Positions 4,428 through 8,712 of a stretch of DNA of 16,545 bases are shown in pieces. Location of the stretch: assembly GCA_902767065.1 (NCBI GenBank), contig CACXFW010000137.1, positions 1 through 16,545 on the forward strand. The letters run 5' to 3'. Made by a program: the position numbers and the translations under genes. The notes beneath the pieces were generated by a model, which was given only the letters and a program-made list of their open reading frames with translations, ran no database searches and was not told the origin of the DNA. Within the stretch, counting starts at the first letter, position 1, and each line of letters begins with the position of its first letter. This DNA is from an uncultured Lachnospiraceae bacterium (GTDB taxonomy: Bacteria; Bacillota; Clostridia; Lachnospirales; Lachnospiraceae).

Positions 4428-4991
4428 TTACCGATGCCTGATTCTGCTTAAGGTGACAGGCGAAATATTCAGAAACGAAGCAATATCCTTATGCGGAACA
4501 CAGTCGATCAATCCGGGGTAATGCTGCAAAAACCATTCATACCGCTCCTGGCCGGTTTTCAGATATAACATCTTTCTGCAGTCCCAGTGATAAAGTGATG
4601 CCTGCGCAAGCATGTGCATCTGGAGATCCATCAGCTCCGGGAACTGGGTTCTTCGCTTCAGGACGGTTTCAACAGGGATACTGAAAATCTCGGCGTCCTG
4701 GATGACGATGAATCCGATCTCCGAAGGACCGCCATCCAGCATTCTTGATCCCGCGATAATGTCTCCCGGATGGATCATAAATGACGTTGTCGTCTCATTT
4801 CCCTTATGATCGACAATATAGCCTCTTACAGCCCCGGTGATCAGGAACCTGACATAAGAGTCTGTCTTTCCGATCTCATTGATTGCATCACCGCGTCTGA
4901 AGGTTTCCGTCAGGCATTCCTTTTCCAGAATCCTTCTGAGTTTTTCGTTCTGGACTGGAATGATCTCGGATAAAAATGTCAGAGTGTCCAT
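4428..4991 (-). CDS. Crp/Fnr-family transcriptional regulator
   Basis: A 187-residue cytoplasmic regulator. The N-terminal two thirds is a cyclic-nucleotide-binding-like cupin: FRRGDAINEIGKTDSYVRFLITGAVRGY, then FMIHPGDIIAGSRMLDGG and the AEIFSIPVETV segment. The C-terminal helix-turn-helix is PHKDIASFLNISPVTLSRIR, ending RHR, typical of the short members of this superfamily that lack the extra winged C-terminus. There is no N-terminal Cys cluster, so it is not an oxygen-sensing FNR. The ligand is unknown. ATG at 4991 is chosen over an in-frame GTG at 5003 because AGGA lies 5 nt before the ATG; the GTG would sit on top of the SD. It is convergent with pgsA and divergent from the stefin-like gene, which it might control; the dyad at 5047-5058 is a candidate site. 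Confidence 0.88.
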   Translation of the reverse strand: MDTLTFLSEIIPVQNEKLRRILEKECLTETFRRGDAINEIGKTDSYVRFLITGAVRGYIVDHKGNETTTSFMIHPGDIIAGSRMLDGGPSEIGFIVIQDAEIFSIPVETVLKRRTQFPELMDLQMHMLAQASLYHWDCRKMLYLKTGQERYEWFLQHYPGLIDCVPHKDIASFLNISPVTLSRIRHR

Positions 4992-5046
4992 TTTATTCCT
5001 CACAAGTATTCACAGATATCAATTATTAATACAATAATGCAACCTG

Positions 5047-5073
5047 TGACACTTGTCATTATCGTATGATAAT
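5047..5073. promoter_or_regulatory. Two adjacent dyads in the divergent regulator/stefin-like region
   Basis: A perfect dyad TGACA-ct-TGTCA (5047-5058) abuts a second dyad ATTATC-gtat-GATAAT (5058-5073). They lie about 55-80 bp upstream of the Crp/Fnr-like start on its promoter side and far upstream of the divergent secreted-protein gene. Dyads of this size fit binding by a dimeric helix-turn-helix protein, for example autoregulation by the neighbouring regulator. That is inference from position and symmetry only. The second dyad could instead be part of a promoter, since TATGATAAT resembles an extended -10. Confidence 0.3.
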
Positions 5074-5121
5074 CAGCACCAGTGCTTTTAGGAGAATAAC
5101 AACCCTTTTGTTACAGGCACA

Positions 5122-5148
5122 GGGCTGGCCGGGGTGTGACCTGCAACA
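5122..5148 (+). repeat. Intergenic repeat 'C', copy 1
   Basis: Bases 5122-5148 (GGGCTGGCCGGG ... GTGACCTGCAACA) recur at 8818-8844 in the same orientation with 26 of 27 identical. The preceding TACAGGC (5112-5118) is shared too, with a shorter spacer here. In this copy TTACAGG-CACA (5111-5121) can pair with TGTG-a-CCTGCAA (5135-5146), giving a hairpin capped by the GGCTGGCC segment, followed by CTTTTTATT. Both copies lie between divergent genes. Confidence 0.55.
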
Positions 5149-5162
5149 TCTTTTTATTCGGC

Positions 5163-5184
5163 AATGAATTTCGTTCGCGAGTAT
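5163..5184 (+). repeat. Intergenic repeat 'B', copy 1
   Basis: A 22-base segment beginning AATGAATTTCGTTCG and ending GAGTAT recurs at 10968-10989 with a single difference (C versus T at the 16th base). It lies directly upstream of the proposed promoter of the stefin-like gene. Its function is unknown. The surrounding sequence is not shared with the other copy. Confidence 0.5.
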
Positions 5185-5187
5185 CGA

Positions 5188-5215
5188 TTGATTTAGAATG
5201 TTTCTATGGTATCAT
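5188..5215 (+). promoter_or_regulatory. Candidate sigma-A promoter of the stefin-like gene
   Basis: TTGATT (5188-5193) and TATCAT (5210-5215) are separated by 16 bp, a reasonable vegetative promoter match. It would give a leader of about 90 nt before the ATG at 5310. It sits just after the repeat at 5163-5184. Called from consensus only. Confidence 0.4.
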
Positions 5216-5309
5216 GGAGTTAAAGCTCCTGCGCGCAGACATCCGGGAAGCAGTGCAGGCAGCCGGGGCAACCCTTTACAGTTCTCAATCACAGAAAGGA
5301 AAGAAGGAT

Positions 5310-5987
5310 ATGAAGAAAAGAGTATTACCGATTCTGACAGTTGTAATTGCGATGCTTCTTTGCTGCTCTGTCTTTGCTGCCGGAGGCTGGAAGATCAATA
5401 AAAAGGCTCCCTCCTACCTGACAGCGGGCGAGAAGGCTGACTTCAACAAGGCAAAGAAGGACTTCACCGGTGCAAACTATACCCCCGTTTTCAAAATAGC
5501 GGACCAGGAGGTTGCGGGAACAAATACCGCATTCTTCTGTAAGGGAGAAACCGTGACCCTGAAACCAAAGACCTCGTGGAAGATCGTGATCGTCAGCAAG
5601 GACCTGAACGGGAATGCTTCCTTCACGAAGATCGTTGATTTCGACTTCAGGAATGTGAAGACGCGAAACAGCCAGTATGAGACAAAACCGATCCCGGGCG
5701 GCTGGACATACAACCGGAATGCCTATTCCTCCAAGGTACTCCCCGCATCCGCAAAAAAGATCTTCAAAAAAGCGAAAAGCAAGTATGTGGGAGTGGATCT
5801 GACCGCGCTTGCCCTGCTCGGCACGCAGGTGGTGAACGGAACAAAATACAGGTATCTTTGCCAGGGGAAGATCATGGACGCGGAAGGCAGCGTGAATCTC
5901 TACGTGGTGGACGTCTGGAAGAAGGCTGGCGGGAAGTGCCGCATCACAGACTGCGATGTGATTGACATCCCCGCATATCTCGGGTAA
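5310..5987 (+). CDS. Secreted protein with two tandem cystatin/stefin-like repeats
   Basis: The protein has 225 residues with an N-terminal signal peptide (MKKRVLPILTVVIAMLLCCSVFA), cleavage likely after A23 or A24. The mature part is two repeats of about 100 residues. Each begins GGW (25-27; 130-132), has an amphipathic helix-like stretch (AGEKADFNKAKKDF; ASAKKIFKKAKSKY), then a Q-x-V-x-G-T motif (QEVAGT 66-71; QVVNGT 173-178) followed by beta-rich sequence. This order (N-terminal Gly pair, helix, QxVxG hairpin, strands) is that of stefins/cystatins, inhibitors of papain-like cysteine proteases. Inhibition is inferred, not shown. ATG at 5310 has GGAAAGAAGGAT upstream; an in-frame GTG at 5136 would bury the signal peptide. 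glpK begins 60 nt later with no terminator seen between, so co-transcription is possible. Similar GGW...QVVAGTN hypotheticals occur in gut Firmicutes as I recall. Confidence 0.75.
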   Translation: MKKRVLPILTVVIAMLLCCSVFAAGGWKINKKAPSYLTAGEKADFNKAKKDFTGANYTPVFKIADQEVAGTNTAFFCKGETVTLKPKTSWKIVIVSKDLNGNASFTKIVDFDFRNVKTRNSQYETKPIPGGWTYNRNAYSSKVLPASAKKIFKKAKSKYVGVDLTALALLGTQVVNGTKYRYLCQGKIMDAEGSVNLYVVDVWKKAGGKCRITDCDVIDIPAYLG

Positions 5988-7764: not shown

Positions 7765-8712
7765 TTACTCTGTCTCCGGTACAGGCATCAGCAGGGAACG
7801 GGATTCCGGCTTCGCACGGTAATACGCGGGACGGGTCCATTTTTCATGGATTCCGGAATACTTCCAGGTGTTTTTCTCCTCATCATAGGAATGGATGAGC
7901 AGATACTGCCATGCGCTGTCGGCGGCCAGCGCGTCATAGATATAGCGCAGCGGGATCCACTGACGGTTGTGCTTCGGGTTTCCGGAATCTCCCAGGAATA
8001 CCTGATCCGTTTCAGGATGATAATGCCAGATATTGACGTAGTGCCCGGGAGTATCCTGCCAGTACGTGTCATCGTCCTCGCTTGAAATCAGAACGATCGC
8101 TCCAGGGCAATCTGCGATTGCCTTCTGGAAGGCTTTATAGCTTCGGTCCTTGTTTTTGAGCGTTGCAAAAATGCCTGTTCTCTCCAGCGTTTCCACCATA
8201 TAAGGCCAGTCGATGGCACCTGCGCCGTCACCCGGCGCATAATCTGATACCTTGCGCGCAAGCGCGTACATGTCAAGCGGAGAGCATTCATAGGGAGTGA
8301 GAGAGCTGTAGACCCCTGCAAGATCGCACAGGCCGCAGCCAAACACGCTGAACAGTCCTCCGTCAAGCTCTGATTCACACCAGATTCCGGACCAGGGGGC
8401 TTTGCTCTCCCAGGCAACAGGCCCCTGAAGAAAGGTATAGATCCCATCTTCTGCGTGAAGAGCAGGGTCTTCTGTCTGAGGTGCCTGCGATTCTGATTCT
8501 GAATCCGGTTCTGATTCTGCCACAGGCCTCTTCCCGGGTTTCGTCATGCCCTCCGGGGATTCGGTTTCATGGATGGTTTGCTGACTGGTGGTGAGCTCTT
8601 CTGTCATCATCAGCAGACGGTCTGCTTTTTCCCTGTATCGGTACAGGAGAACAAAACTGACTGCGACAAGTGCCAGGATACAGGAGAGAGAGATCGCGAT
8701 CATCCGCCGCAT
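7765..8712 (-). CDS. Membrane-anchored C39-like (papain-fold) cysteine peptidase
   Basis: The protein has 315 residues: a short Arg-rich cytoplasmic start, one transmembrane segment (about 5-24), an acidic Ser/Glu/Pro-rich linker (40-90), then an extracellular domain. That domain has the peptidase C39_2-like layout: FLQ with Q96 as oxyanion residue, GCG with Cys126 as nucleophile (VFGCGLCDLAGVYSSLT), GHYVNIW with His224, and GDSGNP with Asp242. The usual GCGPT is GCGLC here. A conserved middle part (PLDMYALARKVSDYAPGDGAGAIDW) supports a known surface-protein group rather than a bacteriocin-processing ABC transporter domain. The substrate is unknown; peptide or cell-wall-protein cleavage is inferred. 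ATG at 8712 has GGAAGGAG 6 nt upstream. It is divergent from the comEA-like gene. Confidence 0.8.
   Translation of the reverse strand: MRRMIAISLSCILALVAVSFVLLYRYREKADRLLMMTEELTTSQQTIHETESPEGMTKPGKRPVAESEPDSESESQAPQTEDPALHAEDGIYTFLQGPVAWESKAPWSGIWCESELDGGLFSVFGCGLCDLAGVYSSLTPYECSPLDMYALARKVSDYAPGDGAGAIDWPYMVETLERTGIFATLKNKDRSYKAFQKAIADCPGAIVLISSEDDDTYWQDTPGHYVNIWHYHPETDQVFLGDSGNPKHNRQWIPLRYIYDALAADSAWQYLLIHSYDEEKNTWKYSGIHEKWTRPAYYRAKPESRSLLMPVPETE

Follow-up and report, generated by a model that had tools for sequence, protein, structure and literature searches.

A predicted exported two-domain cystatin-like protein of an uncultured Lachnospiraceae bacterium and its likely role as an inhibitor of papain-type proteases

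What would an uncultured Lachnospiraceae bacterium do with an export-type protein built of two cystatin-like domains? This question is raised by a gene at positions 5310-5987 on the forward strand of contig CACXFW010000137.1 (assembly GCA_902767065.1). The window, by which we mean the whole stretch of DNA analysed, is this 16.5-kb contig (16,545 nucleotides), and its source genome is distributed over 516 contigs and is about 70% complete. According to our analysis, the protein very likely belongs to the cystatin superfamily and, judging from its sequence features and those of its relatives, is likely to be an active inhibitor of papain-type proteases. Somewhat less firmly, we favour the reading that it is exported and acts with two heads on papain-type (C1A) cysteine proteases from outside the cell. 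The gene and its features, all on the forward strand, are as follows:

5298..5307, + strand: ribosome-binding-like GGAAAGAAGG ahead of the ATG at 5310, a putative site read from the sequence
5310..5987, + strand: gene for the cystatin-like protein with two domains (translates into 225 residues plus stop; relatives share the two-domain layout)
5310..5378, + strand: putative signal peptide, residues 1-23, from hydrophobicity and lipobox rules, with a possible lipoprotein alternative at Cys19
5379..5663, + strand: cystatin-like domain 1, residues 24-118 (tandem model, profile match)
5382..5387, + strand: Gly25-Gly26 at the N-terminus of domain 1 (sequence; conserved column 3 of the family alignment)
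5505..5519, + strand: QEVAG loop of domain 1, residues 66-70 (sequence)
5691..5984, + strand: cystatin-like domain 2, residues 128-225 (models, fold matches)
5697..5702, + strand: Gly130-Gly131 at the N-terminus of domain 2 (sequence)
5826..5840, + strand: QVVNG loop of domain 2, residues 173-177 (sequence)

The ATG at 5310 was preferred as the start over the GTG at 5136 because GGAAAGAAGG precedes it, and on the antisense strand of 5310-5987 a stop breaks the one frame inspected. Each domain carries Gly-Gly-Trp, then a helix, then QxVxG; the initial annotation had located the Gly pairs at residues 25-26 and 130-131 and the loops at 66-70 and 173-177, with Gly-to-Gln spacings of 41 and 43 residues, and these positions are exact in the translation. 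A third Gly pair at 207-208 lies outside the pattern of Gly-Gly, spacer and QxVxG. Aligned with each other, the two domains prove homologous, with 30% identity across 94 columns and an E of 3e-6 for that one comparison. The second loops read DLNGN and KAGGK, with Pro-Trp absent from both, and domain 1 contains one cysteine (77) and domain 2 three (184, 210 and 215). When the mature sequence was shuffled 200,000 times, a single Gly-Gly-spacer-QxVxG unit appeared in 194 shuffles and two units in 15, but this pattern was chosen after the sequence had been seen, and conservation in relatives is therefore the stronger evidence.

AlphaFold2 predicted a cystatin fold with high confidence. Both modelled halves consist of a strand, a helix and four strands, with QxVxG at the turn joining strands 2 and 3; the helix wrapped by a sheet and the QxVxG hairpin, on which the initial annotation had staked its claim, are thus present in the predicted models of both halves. 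The best VIA structural rows for the models were cystatins, and potato multicystatin headed those for the tandem model (13-17% identity to the potato chains); Foldseek alone returned nothing at E<=0.001 for the models. The profile of the family matched 24 PDB sequences, 23 of them cystatins, with a best E of 2.5e-4. The proposal of two cystatin-like domains is therefore borne out by motifs, predicted fold and family profile, and the very likely superfamily membership rests on the N-terminal glycines (Gly25, Gly130), the QxVxG loops, the fold and the family-profile homology. As a separate observation, numerous structural alignments to the tandem model begin at model residues 1-3, span about 80 residues and stop near 197, which looks as though domain 2 were completed by the N-terminal strand of its partner; this would be either strand exchange between the halves or an AlphaFold repeat artefact.

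An initial protein search returned 13 relatives, and a genome scan with their alignment revealed 202 loci, which were found by a QxVxG-like pattern; details of these loci rest on the best 80 of the 202. Domains were recounted in 92 loci (these 80 and 12 from a 150-genome scan of the bacterial family to which the window belongs), with the window and its duplicate L095 excluded, giving 93 family proteins and 197 domains. Two domains occurred in 78 proteins, four in 6, three in 4 and one in 5, i.e. 88 of the 93 are multidomain. In the domain tree, second domains mostly group together, the best split leaving 19 misplacements among 134 with a support of 0.11.

The wedge by which cystatins enter the protease cleft, established for stefin B with papain, is formed by the N-terminal Gly, QxVxG and the second loop. 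Across the 197 domains, the most conserved columns were the Gly (193) and Gln (189) of QxVxG and the Asn after this loop (186). Next came the N-terminal Gly, kept in 185 domains, and the second-loop Gly, kept in 182; the Trp behind Gly-Gly and the Val of QxVxG tied at 180. Because the loci had been picked by a QxVxG-like pattern, conservation was recounted on the 113 domains that lay outside the pattern or were found by profile, and QxVxG was kept in 100 of them, its Gly in 109 and its Gln in 105, with the N-terminal and second-loop Gly in 103 each. The three wedge elements are thus the most conserved even where they were not selected for, which argues for retained inhibition.

The two-domain protein is probably exported, as its N-terminus suggests. 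The sequence VFA23/A24 is compatible by eye with signal peptidase I, in agreement with the cut at A23/A24 initially predicted; Cys18-Cys19 stands just upstream, however, and a permissive lipobox rule also matches Cys19, and this cleavage site is not certain. The accompanying idea that cleavage would leave the Gly pair at the mature N-terminus holds for the window protein and some relatives, but not for most of them: of the 83 relatives whose start resembles a signal peptide, 67 have their first domain at least 40 residues past the Met.

Members of the family come mainly from bacteria of the gut and the rumen. Among the best 80 of the 202 loci, 26 record titles name a ruminant and one a horse, while the labels comprise 23 RUG-type and 2 RUI-type genomes, which we take to be rumen genomes, 5 of Ruminococcus albus and 23 that are unplaceable; these counts are descriptive, having no background rate and hence no enrichment test. 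Locus labels include Clostridia, Erysipelotrichaceae and Coriobacteriia, the family is present in sequenced R. albus strains, and one protein among those listed is named from a Spirochaetales bin. A single-domain profile search yielded 202 proteins, with a Pfam label on none of the 120 listed; single-domain proteins were frequent among the database matches listed, a list whose length limits favoured them. The distribution is patchy: there were 13 carriers among 150 genomes from the same bacterial family as the window, 14 among 391 of the class and 3 among 299 in a further sample (the window's own genome included each time). The rarity of bacterial stefins assumed at the outset does not apply to this niche, where one scan gave 202 loci, though patchily. 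The Pfam Cystatin model matched 0 of the 391 class genomes and also 0 of 14 controls, so that absence is not shown by it.

Several family members stand out. A locus labelled Eggerthellaceae (L003, 45%) is closer to the window protein than all clostridial loci except L002 among the best 80 of 202, which suggests exchange between phyla, binning errors being a possible cause as well. The phage records gave no match; among the plasmid records a single one, from Persicobacter, matched weakly and over just 34% of the query. The sole find in a viral scan was a 92-residue single cystatin-like domain without signal peptide on the viral contig IMGVR_UViG_3300012983_002170 (L101:4004-4282), behind phage DNA primase and HNH endonuclease genes; a cytoplasmic stefin-like protein on a phage would be unusual. 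Another protein (P0004) follows the window protein (P0001) closely across the whole of domain 1 and roughly half of the second domain and, after QVV, switches to a different C-terminus resembling that of P0015, by recombination between family members or by mis-assembly.

Left of the cystatin gene lie yicC, remA-type, gmk, rimO-type and pgsA-type genes and an rpoZ-sized open reading frame (ORF) named by position only, and between the pgsA-type gene and the cystatin a cyclic-nucleotide-binding-type regulator is encoded on the opposite strand. To the right, an FGGY (glycerol-kinase-like) gene is followed by a papain-fold gene on the opposite strand and then by comEA-type, response regulator, histidine kinase, Germane-domain and comEC-type genes. 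The papain-fold feature is:

7765-8712, - strand: membrane-anchored papain-fold protein two genes downstream of the cystatin, with a weak phytochelatin-synthase match

Phytochelatin synthase is a papain-fold enzyme, and the match (25 bits) is borderline against its cut-off of 24.9. The tRNA scan of the window was empty, and the output of the promoter and terminator scan was uninformative. When the other ORFs of the window were compared with those at the other family loci (blastp E<=1e-8, one incomplete ORF set per locus), relatives of rimO were found in one locus, of the response regulator in 6 and of the histidine kinase in 2; FGGY kinase relatives lay about 1.2 kb behind the cystatin in L076 and L078, and no relative of the 7765-8712 protein was found near other family members. 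There is no clear candidate for an operon partner of the cystatin. The sole same-genus genome in the 150-genome sample (G069) carries a Peptidase_C1 gene and no cystatin; a different gene follows its pgsA, and its FGGY kinase stands about 80 bases from comEA on a different contig. In neither of these stretches was there a match to the regulator, to the cystatin or to the papain-fold gene, which are therefore additions or rearrangements at the window's site. Window positions 4428-5987 (regulator and cystatin) thus mark a synteny break, the congener's two blocks lying on separate contigs with different neighbours.

Five other loci share an arrangement of their own, in which a gene for a sigma-70-type (ECF-like) factor lies 13-64 bases behind the cystatin and one for an anti-sigma-type membrane protein comes next (L042:4272-5547, L052:7405-8836, L068:9123-10401, L077:9096-10374 and L083:2560-3582). 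Two of the five are from R. albus, and the sigma domains were confirmed by Pfam in all four loci tested. In L068, L077 and L083, part of the cystatin at its C-terminal end resembles the anti-sigma-type membrane proteins, and DUF4367 appeared, under its curated cut-off, in the membrane protein of L068 and the cystatin of L083. This arrangement suggests envelope-stress control of some family members.

Three other explanations have to be weighed against our reading. That an unrelated exported protein bears two short motif matches by chance would agree with the single-query searches, in which the window protein gave nothing meaningful in Pfam, NCBIfam, PHROGs and PDB, with no Pfam match and no cystatin matched in PDB. 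Since family profiles match cystatins almost exclusively, the predicted fold resembles cystatins and the motif is kept in relatives labelled Bacillota and Coriobacteriia, such a coincidence is hardly credible. The fold might, alternatively, serve something other than cysteine-protease inhibition, such as binding of another protease class, as in the squash aspartic protease inhibitor (SQAPI), binding of a surface ligand or a role in envelope stress. The SQAPI model was matched alongside Cystatin by 29 of 58 aligned proteins, sigma factor and anti-sigma-type genes stand behind the cystatin in the five loci above, and some domains have lost QxVxG. A scaffold put to other use would, however, not be expected to keep exactly the wedge residues, and these lead the conserved columns even among domains that the motif had no part in choosing; we consider this explanation unlikely.

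Distinctly less probable still is that the cystatin controls papain-fold enzymes of its own or neighbouring bacteria, e.g. the 7765-8712 (- strand) protein. That neighbour has the borderline phytochelatin-synthase match and, like the cystatin gene, is absent from the congener's matching place, and some Peptidase_C1 gene occurs in 77 of the 150 family genomes. It lacks, however, relatives near other family members in the comparison above, the window's own genome has no Peptidase_C1 match, and no positive association is seen across the family, Peptidase_C1 being present in 5 of 13 cystatin carriers and 72 of 137 other genomes (p 0.39). The cell's own papain-fold enzymes, one of the targets initially considered, are hence a weak candidate, and its own C1 proteases as targets are unsupported (none matched in the incomplete genome; 5/13 vs 72/137). 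As the cystatin does not follow the bacteria's own Peptidase_C1 genes, a target from outside the cell is what remains as the best reading. Certain points weigh against it and against inhibition: the roughly 70% completeness of the genome weakens the lack of Peptidase_C1, 13 carriers make a weak test of association, QxVxG is lost in 13 of 197 domains, and among the 78 two-domain proteins the motif is lost in 2 first and 6 second domains.

In the preferred reading of an exported inhibitor with an outside target, the wedge of each domain (Gly-Gly-Trp, the QxVxG hairpin and the second hairpin) would face the catalytic cleft of a protease, and the two domains might block two enzyme molecules or span two specificities. 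The likeliest targets would be external proteases of the gut or rumen lumen, from ciliates, the animal host or ingested plants. Excerpts of a study on a rumen ciliate describe abundant cathepsin B and F transcripts, which its authors tie to the digestion of engulfed microbes (PMC6925433), making ciliate proteases attractive as targets, and they also report a transcript resembling cystatin B in Entodinium caudatum; animal and plant proteases fit as well, and our search of the open-licence literature for plant proteases in the rumen found nothing on topic. More speculatively, at least two phyla of gut and rumen bacteria may have built widespread exported multi-headed cystatins, with a phage-borne copy too, that shield their surface from eukaryotic cysteine proteases, especially those of predatory ciliates and ingested plants, as an anti-predation or niche-defence trait. 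If ciliate cathepsins are the targets, the family would offer a molecular handle on rumen predation. A large, probably exported family, mostly duplicated in the loci analysed and without Pfam label (120 listed), makes the bacterial use of a eukaryotic-type inhibitor testable.

Bacterial cystatin-superfamily genes with conserved motifs and a patchy distribution, presumably acquired by gene transfer, have been described by Kordis and Turk in 2009 in Clostridium, Eggerthella and Oribacterium among others, with cysteine proteases of their eukaryotic hosts as the proposed targets; excerpts of that paper name a triplicated cystatin for Polaribacter and describe no tandem stefin (PMC2784779). The family reported here shares the superfamily and the patchiness, whereas most of its proteins at the loci are multidomain (88 of 93) and look exported. 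The prediction of bacterial stefins dates from 2009; their tandem, export-type form is new. Bacterial cystatins were said to need more experiments in the part of a 2012 review consulted (PMC3594739), and titles and abstracts of the open-licence PMC cystatin literature held no assayed gut-bacterial cystatin among the matches listed. Excerpts of PMC10380794 and PMC5911377 added nothing on such proteins, those of the latter leaving cysteine unmentioned.

Compared with known inhibitors, the window protein combines familiar and unfamiliar traits. The type 1 cystatins (stefins A and B) are classed in MEROPS family I25. They are cytosolic, single-domain proteins without signal peptide (in part from PMC3594739). 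The window protein differs from them in its export-type N-terminus, its duplication, the Trp after Gly-Gly and a DLxGN-like second loop; the first two of these traits make it no textbook stefin. Type 2 cystatins carry Pro-Trp in the second loop, and each of their domains has two disulfides; here the Pro-Trp loop is lacking and domain 1 has too few cysteines. Chagasin-type bacterial inhibitors (I42) have papain-family targets, and their fold and motifs are unlike those of cystatins; the window protein shares with them the bacterial origin and, as predicted here, inhibition of the papain family. With potato multicystatin and the kininogens (the latter partly from excerpts of PMC3594739) it has in common several cystatin domains in one chain, those proteins being eukaryotic.
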